Assembly (NCBI RefSeq): GCF_015207735.1
Contig: NZ_JADEWG010000023.1
Coordinates: forward strand, 1-64,000
Source: [Phormidium] sp. LEGE 05292
Lineage (GTDB): Bacteria; Cyanobacteriota; Cyanobacteriia; Cyanobacteriales; Aerosakkonemataceae
Reading direction: 5' to 3'
Length of the DNA stretch: 64,000 nucleotides
Position numbers and translations under genes: made by a program. Below are positions 1,536-10,089 of this stretch, one piece after another. Position 1 is the first letter of the stretch. Each line of letters starts with the position of its first letter. Under the pieces are notes generated by a model, which saw only the letters and a list, made by a program, of their open reading frames with translations, was not told where the DNA came from and made no database searches.

Positions 1536-2162
1536 TTAGATTTGGGTAAGTTTTTCGGAGCAGAACACAGTTTTATCTACAAAGACACCAGCGGTTTCTC
1601 CCAGCGTTTCGCCTACCTGTTCTGCACCTTTTTTTTGAAATGCTTCTGTAAATTCTTCAGTGGAGTTGGTTTCTTCCTCCTGAGAATGTAATAGCTGGTG
1701 GGAGAGATGACTAGACTGCTGTGTAGCAATCACTTGCCCCACCAATCCGCCTGCTTCAGCACCAATAACTACACCCACTGGGCCAGCAACCGCACCGATC
1801 GCACCTCCAATCACCTCGCCTACAGCCCCACCTGCCATTCCTCCAGTCATTCCCGCCCCCAAATCGACCAATTTGCTAGGATTCTCAGATATTTGATTAA
1901 CTTGATCTACTGCTTGATCCGTCACTTTCTTTAGTTGTTCCGCAGCTTGGTTTACCAGCTGATTCGGATCGCTAACTACCGCATTCACACTATCCACAGC
2001 TTGTTTACTAATATCTTGGACGGTGTTAGATGCTTGGTTAGCTAAATCATTCACCTGCTTTACTGTTTGATCAACTGTATGCTGTAAGTCATGAAATAGC
2101 TCATCTAACGGATTGTGAGATTCGTCTTTGTGAGACTCTGAATGGTGAGATTTGTGAGACAT
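1536..2162 (-). CDS. Glycine-zipper protein with long amphipathic helices
   Basis: This is a 208-residue protein of unknown function. Residues 1-25 are rich in His and Ser. Residues 25-100 contain repeated Asn/Gln/Val-rich heptad-like stretches (such as DQAVDQVNQ) that look like long amphipathic or coiled-coil helices. Residues 104-145 form a glycine-zipper segment (GGxxGGAxGxxxGGxxG), the kind that packs into or on membranes. It lies at the edge of the HMA/P-type ATPase cluster and on the same strand as the HMA-domain gene at 2374-3558, with a decayed HMA fragment between them. A membrane-associated accessory role is an inference from context only. Confidence 0.7.
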   Translation of the reverse strand: MSHKSHHSESHKDESHNPLDELFHDLQHTVDQTVKQVNDLANQASNTVQDISKQAVDSVNAVVSDPNQLVNQAAEQLKKVTDQAVDQVNQISENPSKLVDLGAGMTGGMAGGAVGEVIGGAIGAVAGPVGVVIGAEAGGLVGQVIATQQSSHLSHQLLHSQEEETNSTEEFTEAFQKKGAEQVGETLGETAGVFVDKTVFCSEKLTQI

Positions 2163-2338
2163 AAAATTAAGTTTTGAGTTTTGAGTAGTTTGTAGGGGCG
2201 GGGAATTTTTAGCCGAATGCGTCCGTTTGTTTTGTGAGCAATGGTAATTGAAGAAGAGAGAATTTTTTCTTTCTCCGGTTTCGGATTTAGCAGAGATTCA
2301 ATTAGTCGATCGCACACCCAATTCAACTCATAAAACAT
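2163..2338 (-). pseudogene. Truncated HMA-like protein remnant
   Basis: Read on the minus strand from an ATG at 2338, this encodes about 38 residues followed by a recognisable HMA-like start (IAHKTNGRIRLKIPR). That matches the HKIPGRIRLEIP motif of the neighbouring gene at 2374-3558 and the related motifs in the ATPases downstream. Homology stops at about 2200, where a GTAGGGGCGGGG repeat end begins; the frame then runs into the next gene's start region and ends at 2105. The rest of the domain (beta strands around VRINPxASSIVIKY) is missing. I read it as a fossil of one more HMA gene cut by a repeat. A very short functional peptide cannot be excluded. Confidence 0.45.
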
Positions 2339-2361
2339 TTGTATTCACTGAGTTGCATCAG

Positions 2362-2428
2362 GAGGCAGAGCCTCTATTTTTCGTTCCCAGGTTGAACCTG
2401 GGAACGAGATGTGGGAGGTTCTACCTCC
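2362..2428. repeat. 67-bp triple-hairpin dispersed repeat, copy A
   Basis: Three consecutive palindromes are visible: GAGGC/GCCTC, a near-perfect 12-bp arm pair centred on GTTGAAC (CGTTCCCAGGTT with its complement), and GGAGGT/ACCTCC. A second copy of the same 67-bp length lies at 39465-39531 and differs at only a few positions. In both places the repeat overlaps the 3' end of a minus-strand gene and supplies its last codons. Confidence 0.8.
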
Positions 2429-3558
2429 ATTGGTGCAAGATCTGAGTTCACGCAGGCAATTTTTTGATTGTCTAGTAACCAACGCAACTGAAATTCCCGC
2501 TTTGCTGCTGTGCTGATTTCGGAAATCATGCTGCGATCTGCCCACAAACCGAGGAAAATGCTCAAAACTGGAACAATACCCCCAGCAGTTTCCTCTGTTA
2601 GCGCGGTAAGTGCCTGTTCGATCGTCGAATCAATCAGCAAATCATCTGCATCTTCTTCGATCGAATTTTCCAAAGTTTCTTTTTCCAGCTTCTTTTCATC
2701 TAGTGCTAGACGCAAGTTTCCGATATTTTTCCTCGCTTCCTGTCGTTCTTGCTGCGTTTGAGCAATGCCGACATTGAATACTCCCCAAGCAAAGGCTTTT
2801 TCTTGCACATTTTCCGGGGCGTAACCGTAGCACAATCCTATCCGGTGGATGGTTCGCAGGGCTAATACAATCGCTAACCCATCATTCAGTATTTCCCCGA
2901 AAATTTCCGCAACTTCAGTGATGCCTCCCTCTGCTGTGACTTGCTTCAAGGAACGTTTTGCAACTTCCGCTGCTAGTCGATCGCACTTTTCCAAATCGCC
3001 ATAACGCAATTGATGATAATCTTCAACCAATGCCTGCGGTTTGAGTTCCTGCCAATCTTGCTGCCAGTTCGCCATCGCTCTCTCACAAGCTGCACCAATT
3101 TTGGTAAATATCGGATCGGGAATTATCCAACTTATTAATCCCTTGGTTGCACTTAAAACATAACCGAGCAATTCCGTCAACCAAAATGGTTTATCATCCA
3201 ACCAGTCTAGAATCTCTTTGAACTGGTTAGTTTCGTATTCAGTTAATTGAATTACTTCATAAATAGGAACTTGATTTAGTTGCAACGTGACAGGATAATT
3301 GCTGGCAGCTTTGATTGCTGTGGAGATTTGACAATTTAAATCTGTTTCGGAAATGGTTTGGCGATCGTACTTGATGACAATGGAACTGGCGATCGGATTA
3401 ATTCTAACTCCTGTCACACCCTTCGTAGACTCCAGCAATTTCTCTAAAACCGACCTGTAAATATCATCGCTTTTCAGCATGGGAATCTCCAGGCGGATAC
3501 GTCCAGGGATTTTGTGAATTACTTTAAATTCTACATTTGCAATAGCCTTTTTATTCAT
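2374..3558 (-). CDS. HMA-like domain protein with large helical C-terminal region
   Basis: This 394-residue protein starts with a cysteine-free heavy-metal-associated-like domain (HMA_2 type; residues about 8-90: HKIPGRIRLEIP ... VRINPIASSIVIKYD). A hydrophobic stretch follows at about 125-150 (LTELLGYVLSATKGLISWIIPDP), and then a long helical region with charged coiled-coil segments (LALDEKKLEKETLENS). A second hydrophobic stretch near 325-345 contains GGIVPVLSIFLGL. The last 19 or so residues (PMEVEPPTSRS...) are read from the dispersed repeat at 2362-2428, so the native C-terminus has been replaced. The same HMA type heads three other genes in this cluster (5408, 7773, 9526). Without the CxxC pair ordinary copper/zinc binding is unlikely; the domain may be a docking or assembly module. 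Function unknown. Confidence 0.8.
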   Translation of the reverse strand: MNKKAIANVEFKVIHKIPGRIRLEIPMLKSDDIYRSVLEKLLESTKGVTGVRINPIASSIVIKYDRQTISETDLNCQISTAIKAASNYPVTLQLNQVPIYEVIQLTEYETNQFKEILDWLDDKPFWLTELLGYVLSATKGLISWIIPDPIFTKIGAACERAMANWQQDWQELKPQALVEDYHQLRYGDLEKCDRLAAEVAKRSLKQVTAEGGITEVAEIFGEILNDGLAIVLALRTIHRIGLCYGYAPENVQEKAFAWGVFNVGIAQTQQERQEARKNIGNLRLALDEKKLEKETLENSIEEDADDLLIDSTIEQALTALTEETAGGIVPVLSIFLGLWADRSMISEISTAAKREFQLRWLLDNQKIACVNSDLAPMEVEPPTSRSQVQPGNEK

Positions 3559-3927
3559 AAAGTTGATTCTTAGTTACGCATAAATTTCTAGGCAAATCAT
3601 CTATTAAATTTAATCAACTATTTCTAAGTTAGAATTTTAAAAAAATCTCAAGGTATAAGAACTGTCTTATTTTTACTATTCTTGACGTTGCTATTAGTCA
3701 CGCTATCAAAATTTTAGCAATTTTGCAATAGAAAAATAACTAAAATTTTTTGAATTTTTCCAGATATATTGGCTGCTCGTACACAAAATAATCAGTAAAG
3801 TCAGTCTCTCCACTACAACAGAGAGTCGATAAATTTAATTTCATTCAATTTTGCACGTATTTGTCACTTTTGTTTGATAAAGTTCGTTCAGCTTTATTTG
3901 ATATTTCTGATTTGGGAGGTTTTCAGA
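3559..3927. other. AT-rich divergent intergenic region
   Basis: About 370 bases separate the minus-strand HMA gene from the plus-strand DUF5132-like genes and must hold both promoters. It is strongly AT-rich. A small inverted repeat (CTCTC/GAGAG around 3805-3825) is the only structure I noticed. The ATG at 3874, which would extend the next gene by 18 residues, lies in this region and lacks a ribosome-binding site. Confidence 0.4.
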
Positions 3928-4251
3928 ATGGAATGGGAAGCACTCCTGTTGGGGTTAGAACCTTTAACAGCGGCGGCGATCGGTATTGGTGTAGCGGTAG
4001 CTGCGCCTGTGGTAGCGGCGATCGATTCAGCAACAGGTAGCAAGTTATCAGAAAGCGCCCGTTCCATTGCTAAAGAAGGAATGGTTTTAGCTTTCCAAGC
4101 TTTTGATAATGCTCAATCTGCGGTTGCAGAAGCCCAAGAATCTGTGCAAGATTTAATGGCAGAAGCAAAGAATGACCTGAAAAAAGCCAGACAAAAGGCA
4201 GATGAAAATGGTGGCTCTGAAGCTCCTCGTCAAGAGATCGAAATTAGTTAA
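3928..4251 (+). CDS. DUF5132-like small membrane protein, paralogue 1
   Basis: This 107-residue protein has one N-terminal hydrophobic segment (residues about 7-32, LLGLEPLTAAAIGIGVAVAAPVV). An Ala/Glu-rich amphipathic helix follows (AVAEAQESVQDLMAEAKND) and then a charged tail. The start at 3928 is preferred over 3874 because GGGAGG sits 8 bases upstream. It is clearly paralogous to the gene at 4465-4851: both share LxGxEPxTAxAxGIGxxxxAP and FAEAxESxQDxxAEAK patterns. It resembles the DUF5132 family. Placement just before a P-type ATPase recalls mycobacterial PacL proteins, which have the same design (one membrane helix plus an Ala/Glu motif) and act as scaffolds for P1B ATPases; that parallel is an inference, not homology I can show. 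Confidence 0.8.
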   Translation: MEWEALLLGLEPLTAAAIGIGVAVAAPVVAAIDSATGSKLSESARSIAKEGMVLAFQAFDNAQSAVAEAQESVQDLMAEAKNDLKKARQKADENGGSEAPRQEIEIS

Positions 4252-4376
4252 GTAATATCGTTTACATAAATGGTTAATACAAATATATAGGGAGGGGAGG
4301 GACGAAAAGATAGTAATACTATCTGAATAAGTTAGAAATCAAAACCCATCTATCCTAAACATTTGTAGCAAACGTT

Positions 4377-4400
4377 TAAGTAATCGATTAAGTAATCGAT
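4377..4400. promoter_or_regulatory. Tandem 12-bp direct repeat upstream of paralogue 2
   Basis: Two perfect, adjoining copies of TAAGTAATCGAT lie 65 bases before the start of the second DUF5132-like gene. Each contains the palindrome ATCGAT. The position suits a regulator site, but nothing in the sequence identifies the regulator, and a chance tandem in AT-rich DNA is possible. Confidence 0.3.
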
Positions 4401-4464
4401 AAATAAGTGTATTTGAGTTCAGTAAACTGCCTATTGTTGTAAAAAATTAAGGTGAAGATAAATC

Positions 4465-4851
4465 ATGGAAGCGATCGAATCACTACTCTTTGGAATTGAA
4501 CCAATAACTGCTATAGCCGTAGGGATCGGAGCGATTTTGCTCGCACCTATTATCGGAACCGTGAGTTCGATGGTAAACAAGCAAGATGAAGAAAGTGCTG
4601 CGGAATCTACAGAAAATCCCGTAACACAAACAGTCAGTTCTGCTGGCGAAACAGCGCGAGATTTTGCTAAAGATGCAATGGTCTGGGGGATGGATGTTGT
4701 AGAAAGTATTCAAACAACATTTGCAGAAGCCAGTGAATCTTTTCAGGATTTTGTAGCAGAAGCAAAGGCAGATTATGAAATAAAAAAATCAGAACGTCAA
4801 GCAGCTGATACCACAACTCAACCCCGGACAATAGAGGTTGAGGGTAACTAA
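4465..4851 (+). CDS. DUF5132-like small membrane protein, paralogue 2
   Basis: This 128-residue protein has a membrane helix at about 8-36 (GIEPITAIAVGIGAILLAPII). A polar linker absent from paralogue 1 follows, then the shared helix FAEASESFQDFVAEAKAD and a charged C-terminus. AGGTGA lies upstream of the ATG. The same architecture as the gene at 3928, with only moderate identity, suggests an old duplication with both copies kept. It is 63 bases upstream of the small membrane protein at 4915 and is presumably co-transcribed with the ATPase genes. A scaffold or chaperone role for the ATPase is inferred from context. Confidence 0.8.
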   Translation: MEAIESLLFGIEPITAIAVGIGAILLAPIIGTVSSMVNKQDEESAAESTENPVTQTVSSAGETARDFAKDAMVWGMDVVESIQTTFAEASESFQDFVAEAKADYEIKKSERQAADTTTQPRTIEVEGN

Positions 4852-4914
4852 ATTTTAGGAACTGATAAGGAGGATAGGTAGCAGCTATCTATTAGTCATT
4901 GGGCGATAAAAAAA

Positions 4915-5241
4915 ATGTCCAGACACCCACAACGTTCACATTCATATCTGGTGCTATTGAACAGGATGATTGAGCCTCAAAATCGATTGATTCTGTCTAG
5001 TATTATTACTTTTCTAACTTATTGGCTGTTACCCTTACCCTTTGTTTACAAAGATATTCGACTGATTACAACTTATGTTGTGGGTGTTGCGATCGATCTA
5101 GGGCTAATTATCCTAATGATGGTGATTTCAACAGCAGAAGCAACCATGAGGCGGTCAGCCCAGCAAGAACCGAGTAATAAAGCACTTTTGGGTTTTATTG
5201 TACTGTTATATATGTTTCTAGCATCATTGGTTTGGTCGTGA
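4915..5241 (+). CDS. Small three-helix membrane protein, possibly DUF1345-related
   Basis: This 108-residue protein has three predicted membrane segments (about 25-45, 48-71 and 87-106). Between segments 2 and 3 a cytosolic-looking patch AEATMRRSAQQEP resembles the arginine-rich loop of DUF1345 membrane proteins. The family is roughly twice as long, so this would be only an N-terminal half. It sits between the DUF5132-like genes and the P-type ATPase on the same strand and is probably part of that operon. A repeat-filled gap of about 165 bases separates it from the ATPase start. Function unknown. Confidence 0.65.
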   Translation: MSRHPQRSHSYLVLLNRMIEPQNRLILSSIITFLTYWLLPLPFVYKDIRLITTYVVGVAIDLGLIILMMVISTAEATMRRSAQQEPSNKALLGFIVLLYMFLASLVWS

Positions 5242-5271
5242 ATTTAGTCTCAAATTTAGTTTAAAAGAGGG

Positions 5272-5392
5272 GACTGGGGAGGCTTCCGTGAGCGTCAGTC
5301 GAACGGTAGGGAGAGTTGAAGAGGTAGTGAAATATTTTCCCCATCCCCCCATCTCCCCACTTCTTCGACTCCCCAATCCCCAATACCTTTGC
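5272..5392. repeat. G/C-run low-complexity repeat before the ATPase gene
   Basis: This is a GGGGACTGGGG-type tract followed by CCCCATCCCCCCATCTCCCC runs, of the dispersed low-complexity type. It happens to stay open in the ATPase frame and would add 40 residues from an upstream GTG, but the composition shows this is not coding. Confidence 0.6.
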
Positions 5393-5407
5393 GTTTTAGG
5401 AGAAAAC

Positions 5408-7810
5408 ATGACTATTGCCCGAAGTGATGTGAAGTTAAATGGAAATCCTTTTAATTCAATAGTTTCTAATGGAGCTAAAAAAACTGTAATTAATGACAAG
5501 CCAATCTGCCAAGTAGAGACAGTTCATTATAAAGTAGTTCATTGGACTGCGGGGAGGTTTCGCCTCCGTATTCCTCGGCTTTCTTACGATGACGAGTATG
5601 TAAATCAACTGGAATATGTTTTGCGAAAATTGAACTTTGTGACGGATTTACAGATTAATGCGATCGCTAGTTCTTTAGTAGTTAACTACAACGCAGAAGA
5701 TACTTCTATTCCCTTAATCAAAATTGAAGAAAGATTATTTAGAGCGATTCAAGTTGCCGCAACTACAGAAGTTCCAGCAAACTACACCAGCGAAGAACCA
5801 AAAGCAGAAAAATCAGAAAGCAGTAACGAAATCGACTTTGTTGAACGCTTAGGATTGCCAGTTGCAGGGTTAGTTCTCAGTGTAGCTGCATTGCTGGGCG
5901 CACCGATTCCTAGTTTTGTGATTGGTGCGGTGGTGATTGCTAGTGCAATGCCTGTATTTCATCGAGCGATCGAAGCGATTCGAGAAGAAAAGCAACTAAC
6001 TATTGATTTTCTTGATGGATTAGCGATCGCACTACACACCGCACAAGGGCATTACTTCGCACCTGCGTTTATGGTAGGTTTAGTCGAAGGCGGAGAAACG
6101 ATTCGTGACTTGACTGCCAGAGGCACCGAACGAGCATCGTTAAACTTGTTAGATTGTTTGGGGAAAACTGCGATCGTCGTCCGCGATGGACAAGAAATAG
6201 AAATCGAGGTTAAAGACATTGTAGAAGGCGATTATGTCATCGTATTCCCTGGCGATCAGATTCCCGTAGATGGGATTGTTATTCAAGGAACTGGATCGGT
6301 AGATCAAAGTAAACTAACCGGAGAATCTGTTCCCGTCACCAAGCGAGAAGGCGATGAAGTCTTTGCTTCTACCTTAGTGTCAGATGGACAACTACGAATT
6401 TTAACCGAACGCACTGGAAACAATACTCGTGCGGGAGTGATTGTTAATTTGATGCAAGCTGCTCCTGTGCATGATACCCGGATTGAAAACTATGCGGCAA
6501 TGGTAGCTAATCAGGCTGTGATTCCTACCCTGTTGATCGGTACGAGTGTAGGTTTATTGAGTGGTGATTTGAATCGAGCGATCGCACTTTTAACCTTAGA
6601 CTTAGGTACAGGAATTCGCGTTTCCGTACCGACCTCGATTTTATCAGCTTTGACTTATGCAGCCCGGAATGGCGTGTTGATTCGCAGCGGTCGCGCGATC
6701 GAAATTTTAGCTCGCATTGATACAGTAGTATTTGATAAAACCGGGACTTTGACTGTCGGACACGCGGGAGTTAATGACGTTGCGGTAATGGACGATGGTT
6801 TTACCTCCGATGAACTTTTGGTATTAGCGGCGACAGCAGAACAACGCTTAACTCACCCGATCGCAGAAGCGATCGTTCACTGTGCCAACCATCGGGGATT
6901 AACGCTCAAAACCTGCGAAGAATGGGAATACAAAGTCGGTTTAGGTGTAGCAGCCAAGATTGATGGCATCGAAATTCGCGTCGGTAGTCCGCGATTCATG
7001 AAAACAGAGAATGTTGATTTGACCGAATTTGAGCGCCGTTATCCCAACGCTCTCACCAGTGGACAATCCTTAGTTTATGTGGCTGGTGATGGTAAACTTT
7101 TGGGAGTAGTCATGTATAGTGACCCTCCTCGTGAAGAAAGCAAAGATGTGATTCGCGAGTTGAAGAGTCTCGGTGTTAGTCCTTATATGCTTACGGGTGA
7201 TGTGAGTCGGGTAGCAAAAGCGATCGCAGGTAATCTCGGCATCAATCCCAACAATGTTTATGCCGAAGCTTTCCCGGAACGGAAAGTCGAAGTAGTCAAA
7301 GAAATTCACGATCGCGGCAAGACTGTAGCCTTCTGCGGTGATGGGATTAACGATTCAGCTGCGCTTGCTTATGCCGATGTGTCGATTTCATTTGCTGGAG
7401 CAACAGATATCGCCAGAGAAACCGCTGATGTAGTGCTGATGGAAAACGATCTGCGGGGATTGATTATGGCGATCGAAGTCGCTCGACATACGATGGAGAT
7501 TATTTGGCAAAATACTGCGATCGTTGCTGTTCCCAATATTGGCGCACTCCTATCCGGTATTTTCTTCGCCTTAGATCCAATTTTGGCAGTTGTTATTAAC
7601 AACGGAACCGCAATTTTAGCCGAGTTGAACGGTTTGCGACCATTACTAGGTCCCGGTGATGTAACTCCGTTAGGACATCGTTTAAGTGCTGCGGAAATCG
7701 AAGAAGAAGCGGAACGCTTGCACAGTCATCATCATGTTGTGGAAATCACTGAATCAGTAAACAATCAAACAAATGGTAATGGACAAAAACCTGCCGTTGT
7801 TTATTCATAG
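5408..7810 (+). CDS. P1B-like P-type ATPase without CPx motif
   Basis: Likely an ATP-driven cation exporter of 800 residues. The start at 5408 has AGGAG 6 bases upstream. Domains in order: cysteine-free HMA-like domain (about 38-102), two leading hydrophobic segments, the M1/M2 region (FLDGLAIALHTAQGHYFAPA), actuator domain with TGES (304-307), M3/M4, phosphorylation loop with DKTGT (D443), an HP pair (H483-P484) in the nucleotide domain, GDGIND (644-649), and two C-terminal helices. All catalytic motifs are intact. The membrane motif that is CPC, SPC or similar in P1B pumps reads D398-L-G-T-G-I-R, with no cysteine, so the usual soft-metal ligands are absent. The C-terminus carries HSHHH (772-776). 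It overlaps the pseudo-ATPase gene by 38 bases. Substrate not predictable. Confidence 0.9.
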   Translation: MTIARSDVKLNGNPFNSIVSNGAKKTVINDKPICQVETVHYKVVHWTAGRFRLRIPRLSYDDEYVNQLEYVLRKLNFVTDLQINAIASSLVVNYNAEDTSIPLIKIEERLFRAIQVAATTEVPANYTSEEPKAEKSESSNEIDFVERLGLPVAGLVLSVAALLGAPIPSFVIGAVVIASAMPVFHRAIEAIREEKQLTIDFLDGLAIALHTAQGHYFAPAFMVGLVEGGETIRDLTARGTERASLNLLDCLGKTAIVVRDGQEIEIEVKDIVEGDYVIVFPGDQIPVDGIVIQGTGSVDQSKLTGESVPVTKREGDEVFASTLVSDGQLRILTERTGNNTRAGVIVNLMQAAPVHDTRIENYAAMVANQAVIPTLLIGTSVGLLSGDLNRAIALLTLDLGTGIRVSVPTSILSALTYAARNGVLIRSGRAIEILARIDTVVFDKTGTLTVGHAGVNDVAVMDDGFTSDELLVLAATAEQRLTHPIAEAIVHCANHRGLTLKTCEEWEYKVGLGVAAKIDGIEIRVGSPRFMKTENVDLTEFERRYPNALTSGQSLVYVAGDGKLLGVVMYSDPPREESKDVIRELKSLGVSPYMLTGDVSRVAKAIAGNLGINPNNVYAEAFPERKVEVVKEIHDRGKTVAFCGDGINDSAALAYADVSISFAGATDIARETADVVLMENDLRGLIMAIEVARHTMEIIWQNTAIVAVPNIGALLSGIFFALDPILAVVINNGTAILAELNGLRPLLGPGDVTPLGHRLSAAEIEEEAERLHSHHHVVEITESVNNQTNGNGQKPAVVYS

Positions 7811-9347
7811 TATTCCAGGGCGTTGTCGTCTTCGCGTTGATAAAATTGGTAGCGATCGCAAATTCACAGATAGGCTTAAGCAACTGGTTGAATCTTGGGA
7901 AATGACGATCGCAGTTCGCATCAATCAAGCTGCGCGATCGCTCATTGTCACTTACAAGGAAGATGCGATCGCTATTGAAGCTGCCCAAAATTATCTTAAT
8001 ACTTGCATCCAATCAGCAGCTAATTTAACTACAACTAATGTCTCAGATTCAGGTATTGATTCAGAAGATTTGATCCCACTGGTTAATCAATGGCGAGATT
8101 TAACTTTGCCTGTACTTAGTCTCAGTTTGGCATTATTGGCGGTTCCTTTAGAACTGCCTGTGGTGTTGGTGGGAGGTGCGATCGCAGCAGCAGCAATGCC
8201 TTGGTTTAATCGTGCCACAGATAGTTTACTCAAGGATCGCCAACCTAATATTGACTTGCTAGATTCTCTCTGGATGGGATTACATACGGTACAGGGTAAT
8301 TTTGTTGCTCCCGCTTTGAAAACCTGTTTAGTAGAATCTCGGCGCAGTTGGCGCAAAACAAATGCCCAAAACTGGGAAAATCAGGTAATTTTAGCAGCGG
8401 AAGTAAGCGATAATTTGCCAAGATTAATTGCTCACCAGATCCAAACGGCTCCGGTACATGATACCCAACTGGGGGCTGCTCAAGCTCATTTTTTGCGAGA
8501 GGCAATAGTACCAACGATTTTGATGGGAGGAGCGATTTTTGCGGCTACGGGGAATTTGAGTGCAGCGATCGCACCATTTCAATTAGACTTCGGTAGTGGG
8601 ATTCCCATTTCTATTTCGACAACTTTACTATCAGCTTTGGTGCTTGCAGTTCAGCAGGGAGCTTACATTCGCAGTGGTGGAGTTCTGGAAAAGCTAGCAC
8701 AGGTAGATACTATTGTGTTAGATACGGGGCTACGAGACAATACAATTTGCACTTCTACCAGAGAAGCGATCGCAGTCTTACAAAACCAAGGAATCAGTGT
8801 TTATTTACTCCATAATCCTGATATTTACCCTGAAACAATAGCTATGAGAGCGAAATGGTTGGGTATTCCTATCAGCCACATCATCTCAGTAAATCATATT
8901 AAAACCCTACAATCTTCAGGGAAGCGCGTAGCAACGATCGGCGAATATTCTAAGTCAATCTCTGCCAATGCTGATATTTCTGTATTAATGACACAACCAA
9001 ATTGGACAATAGAAGAAATAGTGAAAACCCCAGCTGATGTAGTGCTTTTAGATCGGGATTGGTGGGGGTTGGTGAATGCGATCGAAATTGCCAAAAAAGC
9101 TTATGAGCGAGTCTATCAAAATACGGCGATCGTTTTTTTTCCCAATTTAATAGTCACTTGTGGCGGTGTATTTTTTGGATTAAATCCCATAGTTAACGTG
9201 ATTGTAAATAATGGGTCTGCTTTGGTGGCAGAATTTATTAATAATCAGCATCCTTTATTTGAAGGGAAAAGTGTAACAACAACTTGCGTTAGATTCCGAG
9301 TTGGCGATCGACACTACACATACGCAAGTGCGATCGAGTCATTATAG
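7773..9347 (+). CDS. Catalytically dead P-type ATPase paralogue
   Basis: This 524-residue protein begins inside the preceding ATPase gene (38-base overlap; a second ATG is at 7779), so translation is probably coupled. It keeps the HMA-like N-terminus (HSIPGRCRLRV), the membrane helices and the distinctive DFGSGIPIS turn matching DLGTGIRVS of the full pump. It also keeps the IRSGGVLEKLAQVDTI stretch before the phosphorylation site and the C-terminal helix pair (NPIVNVIVNNGSALVAE). It lacks the whole actuator domain including TGES. DKTGT is replaced by DTGLRD, the nucleotide domain is nearly gone, and GDGIND has become GEYSKS. It cannot hydrolyse ATP by the P-type mechanism, yet the frame is open throughout, so it is more likely a maintained non-catalytic partner subunit than a recent pseudogene. 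Confidence 0.85.
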   Translation: MVMDKNLPLFIHSIPGRCRLRVDKIGSDRKFTDRLKQLVESWEMTIAVRINQAARSLIVTYKEDAIAIEAAQNYLNTCIQSAANLTTTNVSDSGIDSEDLIPLVNQWRDLTLPVLSLSLALLAVPLELPVVLVGGAIAAAAMPWFNRATDSLLKDRQPNIDLLDSLWMGLHTVQGNFVAPALKTCLVESRRSWRKTNAQNWENQVILAAEVSDNLPRLIAHQIQTAPVHDTQLGAAQAHFLREAIVPTILMGGAIFAATGNLSAAIAPFQLDFGSGIPISISTTLLSALVLAVQQGAYIRSGGVLEKLAQVDTIVLDTGLRDNTICTSTREAIAVLQNQGISVYLLHNPDIYPETIAMRAKWLGIPISHIISVNHIKTLQSSGKRVATIGEYSKSISANADISVLMTQPNWTIEEIVKTPADVVLLDRDWWGLVNAIEIAKKAYERVYQNTAIVFFPNLIVTCGGVFFGLNPIVNVIVNNGSALVAEFINNQHPLFEGKSVTTTCVRFRVGDRHYTYASAIESL

Positions 9348-9525
9348 TTCTTCTGAAAATCAGGAAGCTTCTCTGCGATAGCAACTTTGGCTCTTTCAGG
9401 TTAATTTTTCAAAATCTATAGTCAATATTTAGGAAAAGCTGGTTCAAAAGAACATATTGATGCGGTAATCTAGGTTTAATTATTAAAAGTACCAACCGTT
9501 CATTAAAAGTGTAGGATAAACAACG

Positions 9526-10089
9526 ATGACATCTGCATTTGCGACCCCAGAAGAATTTAGTAGTCTAGCTCTAGCCAACGGTGCATTTGGAATTAGAGAG
9601 TATTTAAAAAGTGGTTATGAAATAGTGCATCAAATCCAGGGAAGAATTCGCATTCGGATTTCCCGATTAGCTTACGATCGAGATTATGGCGATCGCTTAA
9701 CTCAGATGCTAAAAGTCATTGCTGGTGTGACTGAAGTTAATATCAACCAGATGGCAAAATCTCTGACAATGTACTATCAGGAAAACACAAATGCCGCACG
9801 GATGGTTCGATCGCTAATTGTTTCCGCACCCAAAGTAGTAGAGGTAGTAGTTCCAACAATAGTTAATCAAGAAACATTTAATTTCCAAATTTTTGATGAT
9901 TCGACTCAGTTACATCATAAAATTAAGCCCCTATTCCACAGATTGTCAATCATTCTCTTAGAGCTTATGGGGACAATTTTTTTCTTAGTAGGTATCATTG
10001 GTTTGCTGTTGCCCATTTTACCAGGTACTCCTTTTTTTATCTTGGGTTCCCTCTGTTTTATAGTAGCTTCAGAATTATCCTTAATTTGA
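9526..10089 (+). CDS. HMA-like domain fused to DUF454-type membrane segment
   Basis: This is a 187-residue protein. Residues about 28-95 form the same cysteine-free HMA-like domain (HQIQGRIRIRISR ... VNINQMAKSLTMYY). After a linker, residues about 140-187 are hydrophobic with the DUF454 (YbaN-like) signature LLLPILPGTPFFILGSLCF. The chain ends soon after this signature, whereas DUF454 proteins continue, so the C-terminus may be shortened. It is the last gene of the plus-strand cluster, 178 bases after the pseudo-ATPase and before a hairpin. The shared HMA type suggests it docks with the same complex. Confidence 0.75.
   Translation: MTSAFATPEEFSSLALANGAFGIREYLKSGYEIVHQIQGRIRIRISRLAYDRDYGDRLTQMLKVIAGVTEVNINQMAKSLTMYYQENTNAARMVRSLIVSAPKVVEVVVPTIVNQETFNFQIFDDSTQLHHKIKPLFHRLSIILLELMGTIFFLVGIIGLLLPILPGTPFFILGSLCFIVASELSLI

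Follow-up and report, generated by a model that had tools for sequence, protein, structure and literature searches.

What kind of system joins a P-type ATPase to a non-catalytic twin, and both to a series of proteins of which several begin with the same HMA-like domain? The question is raised by a gene cluster at positions 1536 to 10089 of a 64,000-nucleotide stretch of DNA (positions 1 to 64,000 of contig NZ_JADEWG010000023.1, hereafter the window) from the cyanobacterium [Phormidium] sp. LEGE 05292. A preliminary description, made from the letters of the window, had pictured a metal-pump-like cluster held together by the repeated HMA-like domain as an assembly tag. On the basis of comparative sequence analysis we suggest that the cluster as a whole is best explained as an ion-pumping membrane assembly of calcyanin-bearing cyanobacteria, a reading to which we give a probability of roughly one half. 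The genes are organised in two divergent groups, one on the minus strand (1536-2162 and 2374-3558) and one on the plus strand (3928 to 10089); the common strand noted earlier thus holds for the plus-strand genes but not for those at 1536 and 2374. Judging from the gene layout, the intergenic region between the groups (3559-3927) is likely regulatory; a promoter and terminator scan gave sites no commoner than in shuffled sequences and no promoter excess in this region.

The survey covered 386 cyanobacterial genomes, which are not independent samples, and the large scans scored three twin and five glycine-zipper candidates per genome, with absences less sure than presences. Calcyanin (ccyA) has a C-terminal domain of three glycine-zipper repeats, and an HMA_2 domain followed by three glycine zippers is an architecture that we take to be that of calcyanin. 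A profile of the twin identified twins in 12 of the 386 genomes, all other matches being full-length live ATPases, and strong matches to the glycine-zipper profile (E <= 1e-20) were found in the same 12 genomes. Hence a calcyanin-like gene is present in 12/12 twin genomes, from five families (p = 9e-20 if the genomes were independent). Weaker glycine-zipper matches with the HMA_2 plus glycine-zipper architecture occur in four genomes of group f24, and all further weak matches belong to other glycine-rich proteins. Moreover, in a tree of 82 rows every ATPase of the window clade stems either from a genome with calcyanin-like genes or from a contig of no known genome.

The four f24 genomes (G330, G342, G372 and G378) combine their calcyanin-like genes with a sister ATPase (43% identity, support 94). 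Dead ATPases without the DKTGT motif are present in three of the four, the contig ending in the fourth, and these are under constraint, with ratios of nonsynonymous to synonymous substitution rates (dN/dS) of 0.05-0.17. Specifically, approximately 10 kb of G330 hold a live ATPase and a dead one, two genes each of the DUF5132, DUF454-like and DUF1345 types and the calcyanin-like gene, and G342 has a similarly compact cluster with ATPase, DUF5132, DUF454-like, DUF1345 and calcyanin-like genes. An HMA_2 plus glycine-zipper gene lies between the ATPases and the twin in G382, and in Gloeothece PCC 7822 the ATPase, DUF1345, DUF5132, twin and a short glycine-zipper gene adjoin. Of 40 genomes tested, the window genome and three g22 genomes with calcyanin-like genes were the only ones with fusions of HMA_2 to EcsC and to DUF454. 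As judged from genome content, these comparisons show that the ATPase, the twin, DUF5132, the DUF454- and EcsC-type HMA_2 proteins, the DUF1345-type protein and the calcyanin-like glycine-zipper protein are a co-inherited gene set.

The member of this set that makes the link is encoded at 1536-2162 (minus strand), where the preliminary description had seen no calcyanin-like gene. The predicted protein (208 amino acids, His-rich N-terminus) is a short form in which one glycine-zipper repeat is complete and a second is cut; three repeats, as in calcyanin, are found in relatives at loci L170, L169 and L182. Its homology to the three-repeat proteins follows from the profile match (E 2e-80, the window row itself being in the profile), and the alignments agree: it aligns with L170:4799-5773 (HMA_2 plus three glycine zippers), with a 349-residue form from genus g22, with a 202-residue form from Gloeothece and with proteins at L169, L077 and L201/L202, those at L201/L202 being short forms. 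A Pfam match to Zincin_2 (E 8.6e-7) was rejected as a coiled-coil match, since the alignment shows a glycine-zipper protein. Directly upstream, at 2163-2338 (minus strand), the supposed fossil of an HMA-like domain proved to be a real HMA_2 match to a hidden Markov model, but a short one: it extends over 18 residues (TIAHKTNGRIRLKIPRPY; 16.5 bits and E 3e-4 in a search of 1000 targets) and does not share the reading frame of the glycine-zipper gene. Because relatives of that gene at L170, L180 and L185 have HMA_2 and the glycine-zipper domain in one protein, the remnant is plausibly the broken head of the glycine-zipper protein.

The second element that sets the cluster apart is the twin (7773-9347, plus strand, 524 amino acids), the start of which overlaps the end of the ATPase gene by 38 bases (7773-7810); both the pairing of a P-type ATPase with a non-catalytic partner and the overlap are as originally described. 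In the window twin TGES, DKTGT, TGD and GDGxND are missing, VLDTG--LR standing at the DKTGT site. We compared 13 twins (from eleven genomes, a plasmid of Gloeothece PCC 7822 and one contig of a mislabelled metagenome-assembled genome): none has DKTGT, the catalytic Asp or the TGES loop, and all keep the H-x3-G-R-x-R motif of HMA_2. They form one clade in three data sets (support of 93-98 in the Shimodaira-Hasegawa-like approximate likelihood ratio test, SH-aLRT), with dN/dS of 0.16-0.34 (0.18 between the window and the mislabelled contig), and retain membrane helices and a P-domain-like core with a fold match to P1B ATPases; the structural model is of low confidence (predicted local distance difference test score, pLDDT, 54) and reliable only for that core. 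Given the single clade, the dN/dS values and the retained HMA_2 motif, membrane helices and core, the twin is, by these sequence criteria, a maintained pseudo-enzyme of one old clade under purifying selection. The "dead ATPase twin" of the preliminary description is thus non-catalytic, as stated, but constrained and not merely a dead copy; the alternative that it is a fossil was rejected on dN/dS and conservation. Nearest to the twins in the tree is a half-degenerate group of ATPases from genomes with calcyanin-like genes, in which DKTGT is kept while transmembrane helix 4 (TM4) and other motifs are altered (L044:8961-11276, L048:8533-10707 and L131:6663-8966).

The live ATPase (5408-7810, plus strand, 800 amino acids) has the catalytic motifs TGES, DKTGT, TGD and GDGIND and matches the heavy-metal ATPase profile TIGR01525 (E 1e-150). 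The CPx motif of P1B-ATPases is absent: TM4 reads LDLGTGIRVSVPT and TM6 INNGTAILAELNGLRP. In TM6, where P1B-6 ATPases of the FezB kind have an HN-type motif, the window clade has NNG[ST]A, the sister clade HNG[ST]A and fez-like ATPases HNGTT. For the TM4 motif D-x-x-[TC]-x-[IL]-[RK] a gap-free alignment was obtained with fez-like plasmid ATPases of Vibrio and Azospirillum (DYSCALK), not with copper or zinc pumps. In the trees the cyanobacterial family likewise groups with fez-like ATPases, apart from the copper and zinc types (SH-aLRT support, with caveats for long branches). We describe the protein as a CPx-less, P1B-6-like pump. Pairs of live ATPases have dN/dS of 0.05-0.10, against the 0.16-0.34 of the twins. 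A sequence search of the PDB returned general P-type ATPases only, FezB being absent among the matches. When contigs were scanned for the ATPase, a single close match came up, in a mislabelled metagenome-assembled genome, besides distant Flavobacteria; the close contig (L036, PUMD01000018.1, binned as a "Clostridia bacterium") has an ATPase, a twin and an HMA_2-DUF454 protein 84%, 56% and 49% identical to those of the window, and is very likely a mis-binned cyanobacterial contig.

What would hold such an assembly together? As first noticed, the four genes at 2374, 5408, 7773 and 9526 all start with a common HMA-like domain, Pfam HMA_2 (PF19991), with E values of 3.4e-13 (2374-3558), 2.7e-8 (5408-7810) and 9.5e-10 (9526-10089), and of 5.1e-5, below the Pfam cut-off, in the twin. 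The term cysteine-free applies in so far as the heads have no CxxC metal site, but the HMA region of the twin contains Cys18 and Cys78. The CoBaHMA domain is an HMA fold in which basic residues are conserved and the Cys pair for metal binding is lacking, and the cysteine-poor, basic HMA_2 head is presumably this domain. Behind the heads, the protein from 2374-3558 (minus strand, 394 amino acids) carries EcsC (E 9.6e-36) and that from 9526-10089 (plus strand, 187 amino acids) DUF454 (E 1.4e-7); a relative of the former in G097 is 33% identical and adjoins an HMA_2 lipid kinase gene, and relatives of the latter are found in L036 and in G097, G237 and G357. Among cyanobacteria HMA_2 is also fused to P1B- and P2A-type ATPases, dead ATPases, diacylglycerol kinase, PAP2 phosphatase and glycine-zipper proteins. 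Fusions to C-terminal diacylglycerol kinase or N-terminal PAP2 phosphatase are seen at L077:15950-17449, L168:158-1675 and L143:16492-17562, and heads on P2A-type (Ca-type) ATPases of approximately 1000 residues at L162:3679-6639, L163:6489-9494 and L164:6481-9492, the neighbours being a DUF5132-like gene (L162, L163) and an S-adenosylmethionine synthetase gene (L162). A compact version of the theme, HMA2-HMA2-ATPase-HMA2, forms a plasmid operon in Priestia megaterium (pBM400, Bacillota; L085).

The preliminary description had proposed a search for co-occurrence of HMA_2 and DUF5132 and had named scattered, unlinked homologues as evidence against itself. Both domains are present in 51 of the 386 genomes, of 55 HMA_2 and 56 DUF5132 positives (Fisher p = 7e-53, uncorrected for relatedness), and among 65 homologous ATPase loci 43 have DUF5132 and 42 a further HMA_2 gene within 5 kb; the proposal was not refuted by this test. 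The assembly-tag idea gains from the many fusions, the co-occurrence and the linkage, but it had overlooked the calcyanin-like gene and the associations with calcyanin and Feo, in which the likely context is to be sought. Our best reading of the sequences is that HMA_2 may be a docking domain that assembles the pump, its dead partner and scaffolds at the membrane or the granule surface.

Between the divergent region and the ATPase lie three small genes on the plus strand. The DUF5132-like single-helix proteins A (3928-4251, 107 amino acids) and B (4465-4851, 128 amino acids) are paralogues, as had been proposed; their Pfam matches (E 0.018 and 1.9e-4) are both below the cut-off, A being placed also by a family profile, and each combines a single, strongly hydrophobic segment with a tail rich in Ala and Glu. 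A model of B gave two helices only, with low confidence. The small membrane protein seen earlier is indeed there (4915-5241, 108 amino acids) and, when aligned with the full DUF1345 proteins from Gloeothece, G085 and G382, resembles a shortened version of them.

Several points weigh against the reading as an ion-pumping assembly of calcyanin-bearing cyanobacteria. The window genome holds only the short calcyanin-like gene, the twin of G235 is split over contigs in a genome with no ATPase of the window clade, and the genes are unlinked in Thermosynechococcus-like genomes. The names calcyanin and CoBaHMA are applied here provisionally. Finally, FeoA or FeoB lies within 10 kb in 15 of the 65 ATPase loci, all outside the window clade. 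With FeoB in 27 of 30 genomes checked, at one to three copies, linkage of approximately 1% is expected; the excess has p ~1e-16 under a rough model that ignores relatedness, several families being involved. Because sister ATPases are Feo-linked, the ancestral transported ion may have been iron. At L053, L055, L057, L059, L065, L068-L075 and L139 FeoA/FeoB genes flank CPx-less HMA_2 ATPases, in some cases together with the ferritin-like DUF2202, and a ferrous-iron store or efflux system of this kind is possible in many cyanobacteria.

Ferrosome (fez) clusters with FezB were reportedly described by Grant et al. in 2022. A plain cyanobacterial ferrosome was our initial idea, which the calcyanin link demoted to a rival: a ferrosome-like system with a FezB-type Fe2+ pump, a DUF5132 scaffold and HMA_2 accessories, serving as an iron store or iron-handling platform. 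The product of a ferrosome gene set is a membrane-bounded iron store. Ferrosome clusters include FezB, a P1B-6 ATPase (PMC10979944, PMC12016538), and, like the window cluster, combine such an ATPase and its HMA_2 head with further HMA_2 proteins and small helical proteins. The cyanobacterial ATPases share the TM4 motif and a TM6 pattern [HN]NG[ST] with the fez-like operons that plasmids of Vibrio sp. THAF190c, Azospirillum brasilense, Cereibacter azotoformans and Arcobacter carry (L079, L080, L081 and L082), the Cereibacter and Arcobacter operons also adjoin FeoA and DUF2202, and to these similarities are added the grouping in the trees, the Feo linkage and DUF2202 neighbours at four of the ATPase loci. 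However, the window clade has no Feo linkage among the 65 loci, feoB of the window genome lying on another contig, and TM4 lacks the Cys of fez-type ATPases. No gene for a DUF4405 protein (FezC, the cytochrome of the Desulfovibrio type) is among the cluster genes, and a Fur-box scan stayed at about chance level, with no signal in the divergent intergenic region. Moreover, the window has a dead twin and a glycine-zipper protein, DUF5132 replaces the YtxH-like or DUF6110 proteins, and the calcyanin link is specific to the window clade. Calcium would be favoured by the calcyanin link and iron by the Feo-linked sisters, and we consider the ferrosome-like system rather unlikely.

Less likely again is a general metal-efflux platform that exports excess divalent metal with the other genes as scaffolds, the co-occurrence with calcyanin reflecting shared ancestry or habitat. 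Its model is PacL1-CtpC of Mycobacterium tuberculosis (PMC9374683, PMC13043812), in which a one-helix, Ala/Glu-rich protein is encoded with a P1B-6-like ATPase (PMC9374683), as it is on a Rhodococcus plasmid (L084), and HMA_2 and DUF5132 also accompany P2A-type ATPases. In contrast to PacL1-CtpC, the window has no CPC motif, DUF5132 has no metal-binding tail, and the platform leaves the dead twin and the tight co-occurrence with calcyanin unexplained. Profile comparison of DUF5132 with DUF1490 and DUF6110 gave HHalign probabilities of 43 and 21%, matches too weak to support homology of DUF5132 to PacL/DUF6110; literature searches on DUF5132, and on DUF5132/HMA2 with FeoA/DUF2202, returned nothing. 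Improbable above all is that the cluster is a degrading, horizontally acquired remnant without present function in this species, as a genome of the same genus without ATPase and twin, the short glycine-zipper, shortened DUF1345 and broken HMA_2 sequences and an IS605-type OrfB (TnpB-like) gene directly to the left (268-1497) might suggest. Against it, the genes for the ATPase, the twin, the EcsC and DUF454 proteins and the two DUF5132 proteins all have open frames and keep conserved motifs, short glycine-zipper forms occur in other genomes and the dN/dS of the twin between the window and L036 is 0.18. Acquisition as such is another matter: because the same-genus genome lacks the cluster and the window genome has only the short calcyanin-like gene, horizontal transfer may be the origin of the window copy.

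We return to the ion-pumping assembly of calcyanin-bearing cyanobacteria, which in these lineages, on genomic evidence, probably serves intracellular Ca-carbonate granules. The calcyanin system, with ccyA, CoBaHMA and intracellular amorphous Ca-carbonate, was reportedly described by Benzerara et al. (in 2022) and Gaschignard et al. (in 2024). It shares with the cluster a glycine-zipper protein, a cysteine-poor basic HMA head and the same genomes; the marker known for it is a single protein that bears three glycine zippers, whereas the window gene is a short form, and the ATPase, dead twin, DUF5132, DUF454, EcsC and DUF1345 partners are not known to have been described as belonging to it. In the mechanism that we propose, the basic HMA_2 heads would bind anionic lipid or each other and so gather the tagged proteins, the DUF5132 helices would cluster the pump in the membrane, as PacL proteins do for mycobacterial metal pumps, and the dead twin would be a subunit of the live ATPase, with a regulatory or structural part to play. 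The live pump would carry a divalent cation (Ca2+ being the likeliest) to a compartment where the glycine-zipper protein assembles; calcyanin-type proteins would shape or line this compartment, and the pump would feed a granule of amorphous Ca-carbonate or some related store. That a heteromeric live/dead P-type pump with HMA_2 (CoBaHMA) heads and DUF5132 helices is the cation loader of the granule is a tentative proposal, with the odds somewhat against it.

Granule formers include T. elongatus, Gloeomargarita and Microcystis (PMC12836880); intracellular Ca-carbonate granules have an envelope of approximately 2.5 nm of unknown nature (PMC6087745), the function of calcyanin is unclear, and no ATPase equivalent to that of other granule-forming bacteria has been reported in Cyanobacteriota (PMC11773610). 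The co-inherited live and dead ATPases are concrete candidates for the cation route to the granule. If the proposal is true, this process, for which no ATPase is known, would have a dedicated pump, and the pair would be a rare conserved case of a live and a dead P-type ATPase; even by itself, a long-lived clade of non-catalytic P-type ATPases, with a further case in another lineage, is unusual. Finally, pumps, dead pumps and lipid enzymes all carry one putative docking domain, which suggests a general cyanobacterial route to ion-handling membrane patches.

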